Part shown: one piece after another, positions 20,774 to 28,292 of the stretch | Numbering within the stretch: the stretch's first letter is position 1 | Layout: every line of letters begins with the position of its first letter | Assembly (NCBI RefSeq): GCF_011927785.1 | Contig: NZ_JAATJK010000001.1 | Location: forward strand, 3,939,001-4,003,000 | DNA: 64,000 nt | DNA from: Micromonospora profundi | GTDB lineage: Bacteria; Actinomycetota; Actinomycetes; Mycobacteriales; Micromonosporaceae | Reading direction: 5' to 3' | Position numbers and translations under genes: made by a program | Notes under the pieces: generated by a model | The model's input: the letters and a program-made list of their open reading frames with translations, nothing else | What the model was told of the DNA's origin: nothing | Databases searched by the model: none

Positions 20774-21060
20774 CGCCAGCCCTCCTCGTCGCGGCCGCGA
20801 CCCGACCACCTGCCCATCCTGGCCGATCACGACCACCGGCGACGGCCATCGGGGCGCACGCCACACCCCTTGTCGACGTACTGACGCTCCGCCCGGTCGC
20901 GGATCCGGGGTGCCACGCACCGCCCCTGGTGGTCCGTCCCCGACGATGGCGGGCGGCCGTTTCGTCGTACCCGTAGTCCATGATCGTGTCGTCGCAGCGC
21001 CGCCGGGTCCCGGCGGTTGTGCGCATCATCCTGAGTTTGTCGATGGCGGGAGGGCCTGAC

Positions 21061-21567
21061 GTGACGGACGCCGACGGAGCCGGCTGGCGGCGGCGCAGCG
21101 TGCTGGCGGTGGTGCCGCCTGCGCGGCCCCGCAAGCTGGCAAAGGTGCCCTTCGTCGAGCTGGCCGACGGGCGGTTGCAGGGCGTCGTGTCCAGCGGGTC
21201 GGACATCGAGCGGGTCTATGTCTCGTCGATCTCCGCCGGCACCCACGCCTACCAGTGCAGCACCAACAACAACCGGCCCTGCGGCGGCCTGCGCGGCGCG
21301 CCGTGCAAGCACCTGCAGGCGCTCACCGACGAGGCGCTCCTCCAGTACGGCGGCGCCCGGGTCGCACGCTACCTGCGGGTCGACATCGGCGACGGGGTGG
21401 CCGGCGGCGCGGACCTGCTGGCCCGGCTCGACGGCCAGCCCGAGCCGGCCTCGGCGGCGGTGGTGTTCAGTCGCTTCCTGCGCCACCTGTCGTACCTGGA
21501 GCTGGCGGGCAGCACTATCGCGCTTCCCGAGCTGCAGTGGTTCCCGGGCACCGGGGCGACCCGCTGA
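21061..21567 (+). CDS. SWIM-like zinc-finger protein, first gene of the MoxR-VWA operon
   Basis: A 168-residue protein from a GTG with GGGAGGG six bases upstream. Its centre has cysteines at about 66, 74 and 82 and histidine 84 (C-x7-C-x7-C-K-H), which keeps the CxH half of a SWIM zinc finger but not the canonical CxC first half. SWIM fingers bind DNA, RNA or proteins. The rest (FVELADGRLQGVVSSGSDIERVYVSSIS) looks strand-rich. It is coupled to the next gene by a 1-nt stop/start overlap. In Enterobacteria a SWIM protein also occurs with MoxR and VWA genes in the yeh cluster (from memory). Confidence 0.72.
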   Translation: MTDADGAGWRRRSVLAVVPPARPRKLAKVPFVELADGRLQGVVSSGSDIERVYVSSISAGTHAYQCSTNNNRPCGGLRGAPCKHLQALTDEALLQYGGARVARYLRVDIGDGVAGGADLLARLDGQPEPASAAVVFSRFLRHLSYLELAGSTIALPELQWFPGTGATR

Positions 21568-22958
21568 TGCGCGGCACGCACCTCGCGCAGCTACGCGAGG
21601 TTCCGGTCGGGTTGGCCGACACGCTCGACGTGGTCGCCGGCTTCGACGACGCCCTCACCAACGGCTTCGGCCGGGTCGGCGAGCGGGACGGGGCGGCACT
21701 GGCCGCCTTCGCCCACGCCTTTGTCGGCACGCCGCTGGCCGACCCGGTCGCCGCGGCTGTCGCCGCGATCACCGCCGGGTCGGTCACGCCGGAGCACCTC
21801 GGCGCGCTCGCCGGAGCACGCTCGGCGCTGCTCGGCGCGGCGCACGACGCCCTGCTGACGCAGTTCGACACGGCGGCGGCCCGGGCACGGTCGCCATGGA
21901 CGGCTCCGGCCGTCCGACCCGCCGAGGCGCTGCCCGCCCTCGCGGGTGCGCGGGCGTGGTGGCACGAGGTGGCCGTCGCCGGCTGGCGCGGTGTCGACCA
22001 CGAACTGCTGTCCTCCGCCGCCTCGACGGTCGAGGCCGCCCTTGCCGTGCCGGCACTCCGTCGGCTCGCGGTGCTGCTCGACGGCCTGACCGCCGAGCTA
22101 CGGGCCTGCGCACCGATCGCCACGATGGCGGAAGTGCCGGCCCGGCGCTGGGCCGATCTCTGGGCCCGGGGCGTGCTGCTCACCGAGGGCACCCAGGTCA
22201 CCGACGAGGCACCACGGGTCTCCGGACGACTGCTGCCGCTCGGCGTGGACCTGCACGTCCACGACACGGCCGTGCAGGTGCAACTGCACGCCGTTCTGGA
22301 GCCGACGGGCGGCGGGCAGCCGCGGCTGGTCCGCACGGCGGTCGCCGCCGCGAAGGTGGCAACCATCGTCGGTCCGGCAGTCTGGCGGTTGCTGTCGGCG
22401 CACCCGATGCTGCTCACGGCGCTGGCCGAGCAGCGGGCACTGACTGTCACCGACCTGCCGCTGCACGGCGGCGACCTGGGCTGGGTCGATGATCGGGTCC
22501 AACTCGACGAGCCCGCGGACCCGTTCGCCACCGCCCGGGTGCTGCTCCCAGCGGCTGTCGCGGCGACGACCGCCCCACTGGACAGACACCCGACAGCCAT
22601 CGGCGAGGCCGTACTCATCGAGGGCACCCCGCTCCGCGACGAGGACGGGACGCTCGCCATCGAGGTGGACGGCGAACGGGTCGTCCTGGCCGTCGACCGG
22701 TTACCGGCCGCCGGTCCCCTCACGGCCGAGCTGGTGGCCGCCTCGTCCGCCTGCCTGGGCCTGCTGCGCTGGGACGACGGGCGGTGGCAGCTCCAACCGT
22801 TCGCGGTACGCGCCACTGTGAAGCGGCGGACGGTGCAGGCGCACAACGGCGACTGGGCGTGCGGCGTCACCGACCCGAAGGTCGCCAAGGATGAGGCCAG
22901 GGCGGGCGATGCCGTGGCCGTGTTGCGCGAGCGCGCGGGACGGTTGCTGCGCCGATGA
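21567..22958 (+). CDS. uncharacterised 463-aa protein of the MoxR-VWA operon
   Basis: A 463-residue soluble protein whose ATG overlaps the preceding stop by one base (TGATG). I do not recognise a domain. The N-terminal half is alanine-rich and helical (AHAFVGTPLADPVAAAVAAI, HELLSSAASTVEAALAVPALRRLAVLLDGL). The C-terminal half is more strand-like (GTLAIEVDGERVVLAVDRLP, RWDDGRWQLQPFAVRATVKRR). No signal peptide or membrane helix is present. It overlaps the VWA gene by 4 nt (ATGA). The tight coupling implies that it acts in one complex or pathway with the MoxR and VWA proteins, perhaps as adaptor or substrate-recognition part. Confidence 0.75.
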   Translation: MRGTHLAQLREVPVGLADTLDVVAGFDDALTNGFGRVGERDGAALAAFAHAFVGTPLADPVAAAVAAITAGSVTPEHLGALAGARSALLGAAHDALLTQFDTAAARARSPWTAPAVRPAEALPALAGARAWWHEVAVAGWRGVDHELLSSAASTVEAALAVPALRRLAVLLDGLTAELRACAPIATMAEVPARRWADLWARGVLLTEGTQVTDEAPRVSGRLLPLGVDLHVHDTAVQVQLHAVLEPTGGGQPRLVRTAVAAAKVATIVGPAVWRLLSAHPMLLTALAEQRALTVTDLPLHGGDLGWVDDRVQLDEPADPFATARVLLPAAVAATTAPLDRHPTAIGEAVLIEGTPLRDEDGTLAIEVDGERVVLAVDRLPAAGPLTAELVAASSACLGLLRWDDGRWQLQPFAVRATVKRRTVQAHNGDWACGVTDPKVAKDEARAGDAVAVLRERAGRLLRR

Positions 22959-24364
22959 CCGAGCCGATCCCCACCGGCGGGTCCGCCGACGCCAACCGCC
23001 GCCAGGTCCTCTACTGGAGGCTGCTGTCACGTCTCTTCGACCGCGACGAGCAACCGAGCCTGGAGTCGGCGAGCGTCGCTCTTGTCGACGATCTCGGGCT
23101 GCCCGCCGCCCTGCTGGACCCGGCGGTCTCGGTGGACACCATCGTGCAACGCTTCCCGGCGCTCGGGGCGGAGCTGCGCGGACTGCTCACCTCCGACGAT
23201 GAGCAGGCCGCCGACAGCTCTGCTGACGACGGCCCGGCTGCCGACAGTTCCGCTGACAGCGGCTCCGGTGCCGGCGGCCCTGCTGACGGCGCGGCCTACC
23301 GGCCGGGCGAGGCCGAAGTGCGCCGGGCCGCGCTCGTGTCGAAGGTGCTGCTCAACGTGTTCGCCACCGGCTCCGGTCCGGTCAGCGCCACCCAGCTGGC
23401 CCGCTGGCAGTCCGACGCCGGCTGGTTCGAGCAGGCCCTCGGGGCCGAGCCCGGCGACCTGCGGCGGGAGGGCAGTGGGCTGGGTGCCACCCTCGCGGGG
23501 CTGGAGGGTGACCTGGTCCGGCGGATGCACCTGCGGGAGGTGCTCGCCGACCCGGCGCTGGCCAAGGCATTGACCCCGAGCATGTCACTGATCGAGCAGT
23601 TGCTGCGGGACAAGGCCAACCTCTCCGGGGTGGCACTGGCCAACGCCAAGGCGTTGATCCGGCGTTTCGTCGACGAGGTGGCCGAGGTGCTGCGTACGCA
23701 GGTGCAGCAGACCAGCGTGGGCGCACTGGACCGGTCGGTGCCGCCCAAGCGGGTGTTCCGCAACCTTGACCTCGACCGGACCATCTGGCAGAACCTGACC
23801 AACTGGAGCCCGGAGGACGAGCGGCTCTACGTCGACCGGCTCTACTACCGGCAGACCGCCCGGCGTACCACGCCGGCCCGGCTCATCGTCGTTGTCGACC
23901 AGTCCGGCTCCATGGTCGACTCGATGGTCAACTGCACGATCCTCGCGTCGATCTTCGCCGGGTTGCCGAAGGTCGACGTGCACCTGGTGGCCTACGACAC
24001 CCGTGCACTCGACCTCACGCCATGGGTGCACGACCCGTTCGAGGTGTTGCTGCGTACCCAGCTGGGCGGCGGCACCGACGGCACGGCAGCGCTGGCGCTG
24101 GCCCGACCGAAGATCGCCGAGCCGAAGAACACAGTGCTGGTGTGGATCTCCGACTTCTACGAGGTCAACAACCAGGCGGTCTTCGACGGTCTACAGGCCG
24201 TCCACCGCTCCGGTGCCCGGGTCATCCCGGTCGGCTCGGTAAGCAGTTCCGGGCAGCAGAGCGTCAACCCCTGGTTCCGGCAGCGCCTCAAGGACCAGGG
24301 CACCCCGGTCATCTCCGGGCACATCCGCAAACTCGTCGTCGAGCTGAAGAACTTCCTCACCTAG
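22955..24364 (+). CDS. VWA-domain protein (CoxE/YehP-type) partner of MoxR
   Basis: A 469-residue protein. Residues about 1-300 are helical and contain a low-complexity insert with repeated ADSSADD/ADSSADS units (about 85-108). The C-terminal von Willebrand A domain has an intact MIDAS: D315-x-S317-x-S319 in VVVDQSGSM, a threonine in GGGTDGT and an aspartate in WISDFYE. VWA proteins with this layout bind metal-dependent ligands and serve as adaptors for MoxR AAA+ ATPases (as ViaA for RavA, CbbO for CbbQ, NorD for NorQ). It overlaps the preceding gene by 4 nt. Its stop TAGGAG doubles as the ribosome-binding site of the MoxR gene. Confidence 0.9.
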   Translation: MTEPIPTGGSADANRRQVLYWRLLSRLFDRDEQPSLESASVALVDDLGLPAALLDPAVSVDTIVQRFPALGAELRGLLTSDDEQAADSSADDGPAADSSADSGSGAGGPADGAAYRPGEAEVRRAALVSKVLLNVFATGSGPVSATQLARWQSDAGWFEQALGAEPGDLRREGSGLGATLAGLEGDLVRRMHLREVLADPALAKALTPSMSLIEQLLRDKANLSGVALANAKALIRRFVDEVAEVLRTQVQQTSVGALDRSVPPKRVFRNLDLDRTIWQNLTNWSPEDERLYVDRLYYRQTARRTTPARLIVVVDQSGSMVDSMVNCTILASIFAGLPKVDVHLVAYDTRALDLTPWVHDPFEVLLRTQLGGGTDGTAALALARPKIAEPKNTVLVWISDFYEVNNQAVFDGLQAVHRSGARVIPVGSVSSSGQQSVNPWFRQRLKDQGTPVISGHIRKLVVELKNFLT

Positions 24365-24378
24365 GAGACCAACCCCTC

Positions 24379-25491
24379 ATGTCCGAGATGCTGCGCGCCC
24401 CCGCCGAGGTCACGTACGCCGACGAGCTGGATTTCCTCGAGTCGGTCGACACCGGCCCGAAGCCGTTCTCCTGGCGGCTGAGCCCACGCATGGTCCGTCT
24501 GTTCATCCTTGGCTCAGAGCGGGCCGACGGCCTGTCCAGGGAGATCCCGCAGAAGTGGTTCGGCGACCGCAGTTTCGTCGAGCGGGCCATCGTCACACTG
24601 GCCTCGGATCGCGGCCTGCTGCTGATCGGTGACCCCGGCACCGGCAAGAGCTGGTTGGCCGAGTTGCTGGCCGCCGCGATCTGCCGCAACTCGACACTTG
24701 TCGTGCAGGGCACCGCCGGCACCACGGAGGACCACATCAAGTACTCGTGGAACGTCTCCATGGTGATCGCCAAGGGACAGTCCCGGGACTCGATGATCCC
24801 GTCGCCGATCATGACGGCGATGGAGCAGGGCGTGGTCGGCCGCTTCGAGGAGCTGACCCGTTCCACAAGCGACGTGCAGGACGCGTTGATCTCGATCCTG
24901 TCCGAGAAGTACGTGGCCATCCCCGAACTGGACCACGACAACATCGTCTTCGCCCAGCCCGGCTTCTCGATCATCGCGACCGCGAACAGCCGCGACAGAG
25001 GTGTCAACGACCTCTCCTCGGCGCTCAAGCGGCGGTTCAACTTCGTCCGGATCCCGGTGGTGACAAACAAGCGCAGCGAGGCCGAGATCGTCCGCTTCCG
25101 TACCGAGGAGCTGCTGCGCCGGCACCAGATCGAGCTGGACGTGCCGCCCACGCTGCTCGACATCCTGCTGCAGAGCTTCGCCGACCTGCGGGCCGGTGCC
25201 GCCGCCGCGACAAGCGACGACGAGAAGTTGGAGTCGGCGCTGTCCACCGCCGAGCAGATCGGCGTACTGGAGGACGCCATCCTGCACAGCCAGTTCTTCG
25301 GCGACCGTACGCTGCGGGCTGCCACGATCGCCGGATCCCTGGTCGGCTCGCTGGCCCGGCGCAGCCCGGAGGACCTGGCGATCCTCAACAAGTACCTGCA
25401 CGGCGTGGTGGAGCCCCGCGCGCGTAAGGACGCCGACGGGTGGGCGGGCTTCCTCGACGGCGGTCGCCAGGCGATCGCGTCCCTGTCGTGA
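24379..25491 (+). CDS. MoxR-family AAA+ ATPase
   Basis: A 370-residue AAA+ ATPase. Walker A is GDPGTGKS (84-91, Lys90), a Walker B-like segment VVGRFEELTRS lies near 155-165, sensor 1 is IIATANSRDRG near 200-207, and the arginine-finger region is SALKRRFNF near 215-223, followed by a helical lid. I chose the ATG at 24379 because the VWA stop lies just upstream; an open frame runs further back inside the VWA gene. MoxR ATPases remodel or load cofactors onto partner proteins with a VWA adaptor. The flanking genes supply the adaptor and a large putative substrate or effector. It overlaps the next gene by 4 nt. Confidence 0.93.
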   Translation: MSEMLRAPAEVTYADELDFLESVDTGPKPFSWRLSPRMVRLFILGSERADGLSREIPQKWFGDRSFVERAIVTLASDRGLLLIGDPGTGKSWLAELLAAAICRNSTLVVQGTAGTTEDHIKYSWNVSMVIAKGQSRDSMIPSPIMTAMEQGVVGRFEELTRSTSDVQDALISILSEKYVAIPELDHDNIVFAQPGFSIIATANSRDRGVNDLSSALKRRFNFVRIPVVTNKRSEAEIVRFRTEELLRRHQIELDVPPTLLDILLQSFADLRAGAAAATSDDEKLESALSTAEQIGVLEDAILHSQFFGDRTLRAATIAGSLVGSLARRSPEDLAILNKYLHGVVEPRARKDADGWAGFLDGGRQAIASLS

Positions 25492-28214
25492 CCGCACCGA
25501 CCGTCACCGGCACGTTCGGCCCGCTGCGCGAGCAGCTCACCGACGCGGCGTCCGCGTTCGCGGGCTCCCCCGACGCGCTCGGTGCGATCCTCGCGGGCAT
25601 CGTCGACGACGTCGACCGCGCGCTCGGCGAGCGGTTGGAGATCTTCCCGGTCTGCCACCACTCACCGGCCTCCGCGCTTGCCATGGTGCGCCGACTGCGG
25701 GCCAAGCAACCCCGGGTCATCTACCTGGAGCTGTGCGAGGATCTCCAACCGCTGCTCGGCGAGCTGCGCAACTGCCGTCTGCCAGTAGCGGTGCAGGCGT
25801 TCGCGTCGGAGCTGTCCGGTTTCCCCGCCGACTGGGGGCCGCTCAGCGTGGTCGCGCCCGTCACGGAGGCGTCGGCGGAATACCAGGCCATCGCGTACGC
25901 GCTGGAGACCCCCGGTGTGGAGCTGGTGCTTGTGGACCGCTCCACCGACCACGTCTTCCAGTGGTCGCCGCGCCAGGATCCGACCGCCGAGGGCGGCGAC
26001 ACCGTGCCGGCCGCGCAGACCGGCGAAGAGTCCGGGTTGCACGGCGACGCCGTCGGGGTGGAGATCGGTGACCTGCGGCCCCGATTCGCGGAGCTGGAGG
26101 CGTACCTGCTGCACCACGGCAAGGTGCGGCACTGGTCGGAGTGGTGGGACCAGTACGTCGAAGGCCCGCTGGCCGACGCCGACTACGACACCTACCGCCA
26201 GGTGATGGTGCTGATCGGCAGCCTGTTCCGGCGGTTGCGCCCGGCCGCCGCGGACCGACTGGACCGTGACGAGGACCGCGAGCGGTACATGTGGACGCGA
26301 ATGCGCCAACACCTTGCCGCCTCCGGCGTCGATCCCTCCGAATGCCTCTACGTCTGCGGCGCCTTCCACGCCGCAAGCCGGGTCGAGCAGTTCGGGCTGG
26401 ACTCCGTCGCCGCCGATTTCGACATCACCCCGCGCACCGCCACCCGCTGGCGGTACGGGCTGATCCCGTCCAGTCACTCCGCGATCGAGGCGCAGTTCGG
26501 CCTGGCACCCGGCTCGGTGTCGATCGCGGCGGCGACGTGGGCGAAGGCGGTGAGCCGTCACCGGCTGTCCCCGTACCGGCTGGAGGGTCAACGGGCCACG
26601 GCGACCCGGGGCCGGCGGGGCCGCGCCCCGGCGGCGCCCTCCCCTGTCGACGGCCCGGTCAGCGACGTACTCACCGGTTTTCTCTCCGCACCGCCGGCCC
26701 TGGACGGCCTCGACGAGGCGGAGTTGCGCGGCTGGTGCGTCGACATCGTCCGCCTGGCCCGCCGTAATGGATACCTGGCCAGCACCGCCGACGCGATAGC
26801 CGTCTTCGAGACCTCGGTCCTGCTTGCCGGTCTGCGTAATCGGGCACGACCCACCCCGTACGACTTCGCCGACGCGGCTGTCACCTGCATTGAGAAGGAC
26901 GTGGTACCGGGCCGGCGGGACGTGCGGCGGCTCTGCGAGATCCTGTTGGGCGGCGACCGGGTCGGTCAGGTCGGTTACGACGCCCTCCCGCCCCTGGCCC
27001 GCGACGTCCTCGACCGGCTCCAGCCGCTCGGCCTGGCCCTGGAGAAGCGGTCCGTCCAACGGGCGCTGCTGGATCTGACCGGTCACCCGGAGCTGGCCCC
27101 CTGCTCGGACCTGCTGTGGATCCTTCGGCACCTGCTGCCACCGGCCGCGGTTCGCCCGATCATGGGTGAGCGCCGGCTCGGGCACCGCTCGATCCAGGAG
27201 AGCTGGGACCTGGCACTCGGTCACCACCAGCGCGCGCTCATCGAGCTGGGCTACGAGGGTGTGACAGTCGAGCAGGTCCTGGAGCAGCGGCTACGCCGGT
27301 CGGTGCGCGGCCCCGACGCCACCGCGGCCGGTGCGCTCGCCGCAGTGGAGGATGCGATTCGGCTGCTCGGCAGCCCGCGCCTGGTCGACGAGTTGGGCGC
27401 GCGGGCGGTGGACCTGCTCGCCGCCGAGCGCACCGTCGACGGCGCCCCGGACGTGCTGCGGCGTATCCGTCGGCTGTTGGCTCACTACCGGGCCACCGCG
27501 CCGAGCCTGCCGGCCTGGTGCGAGGCGTTCGTCACCACCGGGTACGCGCACTACTGCACCCTGCTGCCGACCGCCGTGACGGCGGAGGAGACGGAGGTCC
27601 GGCAGGTCGCCGCGATGCTCGGCTTCCTGTTCTCGATGGAGGGCCTGGCCCTGTCACTGGGCTGCGATAGGCACCAGTTGGAGTTGGCCGTCGCGCAGTC
27701 ACATCCGACGGCGCCGGCGAAGGTCGCCCTGCTCTGGGCGGGTCAGCACCAGCTCGGCCTGCTGCCCCTCGTCGAGCTGCGGGTCCGGTGCGCTGAGTTG
27801 CTGGCCAATCCGCTGGTGGTGCCCGCCTTCCCGCAGTATCTTGCCGGGCTCGTCCACGCGCTGGAGCCGGTGCCCGGGTTGGCGCCGTTCGTCGTCGAGA
27901 CGATGTCCACAGCCTTCGCCCAGCTGCCCGACCCGGTGCTGCTGCCCTGGCTGCCCACCCTCATCACCACACTGCGGGACCAGGGCCCGGAGCTGGTTCC
28001 GTTGCTGGTCCGTGAGGCCGGGCGCATCTTCCCGGGGGCGCTGCCGGAGCTGGATTCCTGGGTGCCGCCATGGCTGGCACCTCCGGCCCCTACGGGCGCG
28101 GTCACCGCTGCCGCGCCACAGCGTCTGGTGGGCGCGTTGCTGGCCGCCCACCCCGAGACCGCCGAGGCCGTGAACGCGCTCCTGACTCAGCGTGGGCGTG
28201 GGGCCGCGATGTGA
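25488..28214 (+). CDS. DUF5682-type 908-aa protein, last gene of the MoxR-VWA operon
   Basis: A 908-residue protein from a GTG overlapping the MoxR stop (GTGA). The first 300 residues show a pattern like TraB/EreA/ChaN (TIKI-like) domains: FPVCHHSPASA near residue 55, VIYLELCEDL near 78-87 and LYVCGAFHAASR near 287-298, i.e. paired histidines and an ELE-like acidic motif that could bind metal. The last 600 residues are long helical repeats without a known motif. The assignment to DUF5682 is by family memory and gene context; the TIKI-like relationship is inference. It is the likely client or effector of the MoxR-VWA machinery. No membrane segments are apparent. Confidence 0.8.
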   Translation: MTAPTVTGTFGPLREQLTDAASAFAGSPDALGAILAGIVDDVDRALGERLEIFPVCHHSPASALAMVRRLRAKQPRVIYLELCEDLQPLLGELRNCRLPVAVQAFASELSGFPADWGPLSVVAPVTEASAEYQAIAYALETPGVELVLVDRSTDHVFQWSPRQDPTAEGGDTVPAAQTGEESGLHGDAVGVEIGDLRPRFAELEAYLLHHGKVRHWSEWWDQYVEGPLADADYDTYRQVMVLIGSLFRRLRPAAADRLDRDEDRERYMWTRMRQHLAASGVDPSECLYVCGAFHAASRVEQFGLDSVAADFDITPRTATRWRYGLIPSSHSAIEAQFGLAPGSVSIAAATWAKAVSRHRLSPYRLEGQRATATRGRRGRAPAAPSPVDGPVSDVLTGFLSAPPALDGLDEAELRGWCVDIVRLARRNGYLASTADAIAVFETSVLLAGLRNRARPTPYDFADAAVTCIEKDVVPGRRDVRRLCEILLGGDRVGQVGYDALPPLARDVLDRLQPLGLALEKRSVQRALLDLTGHPELAPCSDLLWILRHLLPPAAVRPIMGERRLGHRSIQESWDLALGHHQRALIELGYEGVTVEQVLEQRLRRSVRGPDATAAGALAAVEDAIRLLGSPRLVDELGARAVDLLAAERTVDGAPDVLRRIRRLLAHYRATAPSLPAWCEAFVTTGYAHYCTLLPTAVTAEETEVRQVAAMLGFLFSMEGLALSLGCDRHQLELAVAQSHPTAPAKVALLWAGQHQLGLLPLVELRVRCAELLANPLVVPAFPQYLAGLVHALEPVPGLAPFVVETMSTAFAQLPDPVLLPWLPTLITTLRDQGPELVPLLVREAGRIFPGALPELDSWVPPWLAPPAPTGAVTAAAPQRLVGALLAAHPETAEAVNALLTQRGRGAAM

Positions 28215-28292
28215 TCTCCGGGCATGTGGTCGGCGACGCCGGGTAGGCAGTGGCCCGGCGTCATGTCGACACCCGCCGGGCAGGAGGCTCCG

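Follow-up and report, generated by a model that had tools for sequence, protein, structure and literature searches.

According to passages of PMC3893208, MoxR proteins are chaperone-like maturation factors that usually have a VWA protein as partner and form seven subfamilies, of which YehL is one. E. coli K-12 carries this YehL branch. For it, the openly searchable literature yielded neither a client nor an activity, and we found no study of the YehL, YehM, YehP and YehQ proteins themselves and nothing on DUF5682 or DUF5691 by name or on MoxR together with a SWIM zinc finger (subscription papers lie outside this search). The yehM gene appears as mutated under copper in passages of PMC12409786, and PMC12114223 has it under 'biofilm formation' as a gene expressed in colonic fluid. 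Here, we analyzed a stretch of 64,000 nucleotides (the window) from the 6.93-Mb chromosome of Micromonospora profundi, which carries at positions 21061-28214 a five-gene operon that joins a YehL-type MoxR ATPase and a VWA protein to a DUF5682 protein. Computation supports the view that the N-terminal third of this DUF5682 protein is a hydrolase domain of the TIKI/TraB/EreA/ChaN type.

All genes and motifs of the operon lie on the + strand. The operon begins with g1 (21061-21567), which has a GTG start and an upstream ATG at 20980, encodes a SWIM-like Cys/His protein of 168 amino acids (aa) and is kept in relatives. It is followed by g2 (21567-22958), encoding a 463-aa orphan, g3 (22955-24364), encoding a 469-aa VWA_CoxE protein (Pfam E 2.3e-30; 33% identity to E. 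coli YehP), and g4 (24379-25491), encoding a 370-aa MoxR AAA+ ATPase (AAA_5 E 7.8e-36; 41% identity to E. coli YehL over 340 aa). The last gene, g5 (25488-28214), has a GTG start, and its 908-aa product matched the DUF5682 model PF18934 at 105.4 bits, against a cut-off of 26, in a whole-genome search. hmmscan assigned no Pfam or NCBIfam family to g1, g2 or g5. As it overlooked DUF5682 on g5 (window 25488-28214), which the same model matched in the whole-genome search, annotation may miss such copies.

An earlier note on this DNA had described the N-terminus of g5 as TraB/EreA-like. Because a structure search with full-length g5 returned mostly helical proteins, the N-terminal domain was folded alone using AlphaFold2, which yielded a predicted local distance difference test (pLDDT) score of 87.2 and a predicted template modelling (pTM) score of 0.88. 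The ten best structural matches of this model were assigned to the TIKI/TraB/EreA/ChaN superfamily, and the common core fold of the superfamily appears to be present. The structural similarity of DUF5682 to TIKI-like hydrolases that was looked for is therefore found in the modelled N-terminus of g5. In profile comparisons the N-terminus scored 31.5 against TraB (E 0.0013, probability 19%; unrelated pairs reached up to 23.7), with a TraB profile of 11 rows that included one (L194) without the motifs, and it did not match an EreA profile made of 18 of 20 rows. The fold model, the structural neighbours, the TraB profile and the invariant residues described below support the TraB/EreA-like assignment, with TraB as the nearest branch. 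The predicted hydrolase domain covers residues 40-372 (25605-26603) and appears to be followed by a helical solenoid-like arm (residues about 595-848; 27270-28031).

The motif set of the superfamily, consisting of an early His, a downstream Glu, a basic residue and a late GX2H, is present in g5 in the register of TraB; the GX2H label reportedly stems from Sanchez-Pulido and Ponting 2013. H57-H58 (25656-25661) form part of the first motif, CHHSP. E81 (25728-25730) is in register with E67 of the TraB protein YbaP, R264 (26277-26279) with the RN motif of TraB, and G291-A-F-H294 (26358-26369), the GX2H motif, with VGALH. Eleven motif positions, including His57/58, Glu81, Arg264 and His294, are unchanged in 105/105 sequences, at an overall identity between operon types of about 20%; G291 is likewise invariant in all 105. 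The essential residues of RRSP are H3902, E3930, H4030 and E3900, and its R4001 corresponds to the basic residue that TIKI proteases conserve. The g5 residues H57/H58, E81, R264 and H294 follow the same order, with an R-to-H spacing of 30 versus 29. His57/58, Glu81, Arg264 and His294 are the likely active site of g5. Two points weigh against this interpretation. Support for the kinship from sequence comparison alone is modest, and the Glu that RRSP carries two residues ahead of its first His is missing in g5, where V55 and C56 precede the His pair. The TraB rows also lack this Glu.

Kinship with the E. coli yehL/M/P/Q group, as proposed in the earlier note, stood for three of the four proteins. 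For YehL and YehP it follows from the identities of g4 and g3, and for YehM from DUF5682, which YehM itself matches at 330.8 bits; direct comparison of g5 and YehM gave short matches only, the HHSP motif included. On YehM the match to the Pfam DUF5682 model covers nothing before residue 20 and leaves out the conserved HH (residues 11-12), which may be why a kinship of DUF5682 and TIKI proteins is hidden in YehM. The fourth protein, YehQ, is a single 614-aa SWIM protein, and neither g1 nor g2 gave a credible BLAST match or a profile signal against it. By their combined length of 631 aa, and by their fusion at one locus (L063), g1 and g2 may still represent a split YehQ, but neither BLAST nor profiles gave a match for this idea.

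Of 296 genomes of the phylum, 21 contain PF18934; since no more than three candidates were scored per genome, the numbers of copies are minimum values. A low-scoring class of 97-105 bits occurs in five genomes, including that of the window, and four of these five also possess a high-scoring copy. Four operon arrangements were recognised among the wide loci. SWIM-DUF5691-MoxR-DUF5682-VWA was seen at 11 loci. MoxR-DUF5682-VWA-SWIM, which has DUF4132 close to it or within it, occurs in E. coli, Iodobacter, rhizobial plasmids and two further loci (L068, L215); DUF4132 was detected at L075 as well, where the SWIM gene is unchecked. A MoxR gene next to a single open reading frame (ORF) covering DUF5682 and VWA was found at L066, L069 and L071, where DUF4132 was not detected. 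These ORFs span 1223-1454 aa, and Pfam shows both domains in one L069 protein. The fourth arrangement, Cys/His-orphan-VWA-MoxR-DUF5682, is that of the window and is here called type C; the orphan g2 stands where other types have DUF4132 or DUF5691.

A tree of MoxR proteins grouped g4 with the YehL-type rows, a very long branch away from RavA. Fourteen type C rows fell on one side of a branch of length 0.87, with support values of 51/65 for type C as a single group and 80/87 for its split from the other types. RavA served as the sole outgroup, two MoxR outgroups from the window's genome were left out, and the program issued a warning about long branches. With this moderate support, type C appears to be a separate, divergent lineage of the YehL-subfamily MoxR-VWA system. 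The bpMoxR match of g4 stayed below threshold (13.3 versus 27 bits). Its Walker A motif GDPGTGKS (24628-24651) has G84, G89, K90 and S91 invariant in 80/80 rows. In g3, the metal ion-dependent adhesion site (MIDAS) is complete, as had been claimed: D315-x-S317-x-S319 (23897-23911) and D400 are invariant in all 75 rows, and position 374 holds T in 38 rows and N in the other 37. Sequence searches of the PDB with A2, A4 and A5 returned no chain that we judged relevant.

The genes are tightly coupled. g1 and g2 overlap by 1 nt (TGATG), g2 and g3 by 4 nt (ATGA) and g4 and g5 by 4 nt (GTGA), and g3 and g4 are separated by a 14-nt gap in which AGGAG makes use of the TAG stop. The five ORFs, their lengths and these four junctions are as the earlier note had them. 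A scan of GTDB genomes recovered at least 565 relatives of g5, of which the best 80 were kept as named loci, all titled actinomycetes. In relatives the g1/g2 junction was at -1 nt in 69/75 scored cases, g2/g3 at -4 in 71/75 and g4/g5 at -4 nt in 74/80, and the g3/g4 gap measured 9-17 nt in 59/78 among the eight commonest values; scoring took the in-frame start closest to the upstream stop, which biases towards short junctions. All five genes were present in the same order and strand at 77/80 named loci, and the other three (L087, L103, L114) begin at a contig end. In 65 of these loci and the window, the most widespread flanking family was shared by 7/19 genera; it occurs on either side of the operon and resembles a response regulator. 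Since the order is kept in 77/80 loci and no flanking family recurs widely, the operon unit consists of these five genes, in agreement with the single coupled operon proposed before. No obvious promoter motif was seen upstream of g1 in 47 sequences.

The first two proteins were more difficult to place. g1 carries a metal-site-like motif, C66-x7-C74-x7-C82-x-H84 (21256-21312), with all four ligands present in 78/78 rows. The SWIM pattern is CxC...CxH (CxCxnCxH). The Pfam SWIM model (PF04434) did not match g1, which has Cx7C instead of CxC, and a profile comparison with canonical SWIM proteins scored 23.5, with 40 shuffled controls reaching 29.0. Of the zinc-finger/SWIM description in the earlier note, the Cys3His motif is therefore retained, and the protein is called no more than SWIM-like. 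g2 is present in 21/200 genomes of the order and has 53 invariant residues in 77 rows. Its identification as DUF5691 was unsupported (profile score 17.7; 40 shuffles reached 22.9). At one of 15 loci aligned (L063, genome G083) g1 and g2 are joined in one reading frame, which suggests that they work together; at none of the 80 named loci was such a same-frame pair flagged.

How might the five proteins act together? The best explanation, which we put at somewhat better than even, is that the operon encodes a YehL-type system of type C in which the MoxR-VWA pair gates the latent hydrolase of g5, and that the same holds in E. coli. The MoxR hexamer, aided by the MIDAS-bearing VWA protein, would remodel or unlock g5. 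The hydrolase, normally restrained and probably a peptidase or esterase, would then act on a specific target, and g1 with its Cys/His motif would serve together with g2 as sensor or adaptor. YehL, YehP, YehM and YehQ of E. coli would follow the same scheme. The label 'client or hydrolase effector', previously attached to the 908-aa protein, fits these data and is one that we infer. We also entertain, more tentatively and at clearly lower odds, a broader proposal: that in bacteria ranging from E. coli to filamentous actinomycetes DUF5682/YehM proteins are hydrolases under ATP control, in which a TIKI-like peptidase is kept inactive on a solenoid arm until MoxR-VWA switches it on. Type C would then be a separate, cassette-like branch with a g1-g2 sensor pair of its own, used by actinomycetes against stress or invaders. 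With a hydrolase predicted beside a YehL-type MoxR, and its likely active-site residues named, there is a concrete and easily tested candidate client, and DUF5682 gains a predicted fold and a proposed mechanism.

We considered whether MoxR-VWA might instead be a dedicated assembly chaperone that matures a separate target complex, with g5 as scaffold or substrate adaptor and its hydrolase fold inactive. RavA-ViaA, with its reportedly proposed role in the maturation of respiratory complex I, would be the model. The long helical arm of g5 would suit such a role, and the TIKI superfamily does include a member without catalytic residues; the description of MoxR proteins in passages of PMC3893208 points the same way. 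However, no target gene is widely conserved beside the operon, and the eleven positions of g5 have stayed unchanged at about 20% identity between types, for which an active site is a better fit than a scaffold. We regard the chaperone explanation as improbable, at roughly a one-in-five chance, and continue to favour gating of a g5 hydrolase.

Within its genus the block has a patchy, cassette-like distribution. g5 was found in 14/37 same-genus genomes, the window's included; one of the 14, G013, has it only as fragments, a broken remnant. Between syntenic flanks the block (20894-28230) is absent in G002, where 114 bp take its place, and in G029, where about 218 bp do so from 20855. G028, G030 and G034 have unrelated stretches of about 1.1, 2.4 and 3.5 kb at this site in place of the 7.3-kb block. 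Two genomes (G024 and G355) retain the block there, flanked on one side by an additional 1.4-2.6 kb, and in G354 (L193) only one flanking gene aligned. The stretch replacing the block in G002 has, by eye, a long inverted repeat at about 4049-4164 of L187, perhaps a terminator. Two kinds of the system adjoin each other at L215:1-13883 and L056 (G015), where a DUF4132-YehL-YehM-YehP-YehQ operon lies about 1.4 kb downstream of a type C operon and on its strand.

Such a distribution, together with the presence of several DUF5682 copies in some genomes, might be expected of a conflict module directed against phages or mobile elements, akin to the MoxR-vWA ternary systems, in which g5 would be the effector and g1/g2 the sensor. 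The best 80 relatives are all actinomycetes, and many of these genera are filamentous. According to passages of PMC7159879, such ternary systems are found mostly in multicellular prokaryotes. To survey the neighbourhood, ORFs near the operon (95) and far from it (75) were scanned with PADLOC after a filter on GC content at third and second codon positions (GC3/GC2), which left 119 near and 83 far ORFs, and removal of those of at least 700 aa; L089:57-758 was omitted from A6. As raw counts, 40 models matched at least one near ORF and three matched a far ORF. Yet of the 25 near-ORF models listed, 19 are variants of PD-T4-6 that each have a single member, and no listed model exceeded 3/95 ORFs. 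The Pfam families on near ORFs (25 of 103 listed) are mostly metabolic and regulatory. HSP90 was matched by 4/95 near ORFs, which, judging by ORF lengths, probably belong to Dactylosporangium loci. PADLOC did not match g1, g2 or g5 at E values up to 1 and gave weak matches only for g3 (TerY, 18.1 bits) and g4 (mad8 as best, 22.5 bits).

A related DUF5682 operon does adjoin a type I restriction system on the Iodobacter plasmid pl1 (L183). However, the five plasmid records are all 0.9 Mb or more, which we counted against defence, no relative of g5 was found in viral contigs, and yehM is present in 5284/5426 E. coli genomes (5166 at 80% coverage). Moreover, g5 is highly conserved, in contrast to the hypervariable effectors of the published systems as passages of PMC7159879 portray them. 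Those passages make no mention of SWIM, TIKI, EreA, TraB or YehL, and a passage of a 2026 paper on bacteriophage exclusion (BREX; PMC12839542) makes none of TIKI, EreA or TraB. The defence role raised in the earlier note thus found little backing, there being no clear defence island near the operon, and we judge a conflict module to be unlikely, slightly more so than the chaperone. Least probable is a metal, haem or envelope-stress system in which a ChaN-like fold is the binding site for metal or haem and sensing of metal falls to the Cys/His protein, because the conserved set (Glu81, Arg264, GX2H) follows TraB and the two passages on copper have yehM as one mutated gene among many, without a test of its own.

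Several further loci deserve mention. On Streptomyces fungicidicus p1 (L182) a DUF5682 operon lies near an N-6 DNA methylase gene. A 14.2-kb record labelled 'UNVERIFIED Bacteriophage sp.' (MT835988.1; L214) carries MoxR, YehM-like and YehP-like genes and may be a scaffold of bacterial origin under a phage label. On an E. coli conjugative plasmid (NZ_CP103756.1; L181) a stretch reproduces the chromosomal order of yehI to mlrA; past its mlrA end lie IS26 copies and resistance genes. The window's genome also encodes, far from the operon (G000:C1:134448-135488; L165), an erythromycin-esterase family protein (PF05139, E 3.5e-122).

Comparison with described systems places the locus as follows. With the MoxR-vWA ternary conflict systems, which involve VMAP, iSTAND, FtsH or beta-propeller proteins, it shares a MoxR-VWA core with further components and occurrence in multicellular prokaryotes; Pfam shows none of these four in the five proteins, and no effector family is reported fused to g3. 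With TraB/PrgY/GumN (YbaP), Tiki, EreA/EreC, ChaN and RRSP, g5 shares the predicted fold, the GX2H-type motif, the Glu and the Arg, but it lacks the first Glu of the RRSP 2His/2Glu set, is fused to a long helical region and is encoded with MoxR-VWA. E. coli yehL-yehM-yehP-yehQ, with yehI (DUF4132) upstream, likewise clusters MoxR, DUF5682, VWA_CoxE and a Cys/His protein. The order there is MoxR-DUF5682-VWA-SWIM instead of Cys/His-orphan-VWA-MoxR-DUF5682, and the window block differs further in having no DUF4132, in g1 and g2 having no detectable YehQ match and in its MoxR standing on a long branch of its own. Among the actinobacterial SWIM-DUF5691-MoxR-DUF5682-VWA operons, a SWIM-type gene is present in 11/11 loci and DUF5691 in eight, the other three having an ORF that clusters with one of these. 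Their PF18934 scores are 732-1005 bits (689 and 164 for the split copy of G056) versus 97-105 in type C, which has g2, without a significant profile match, in place of DUF5691. Their MoxR proteins are 42-48% identical to that of type C, and the two kinds of operon have in common their protein classes and their organization as a five-gene unit.

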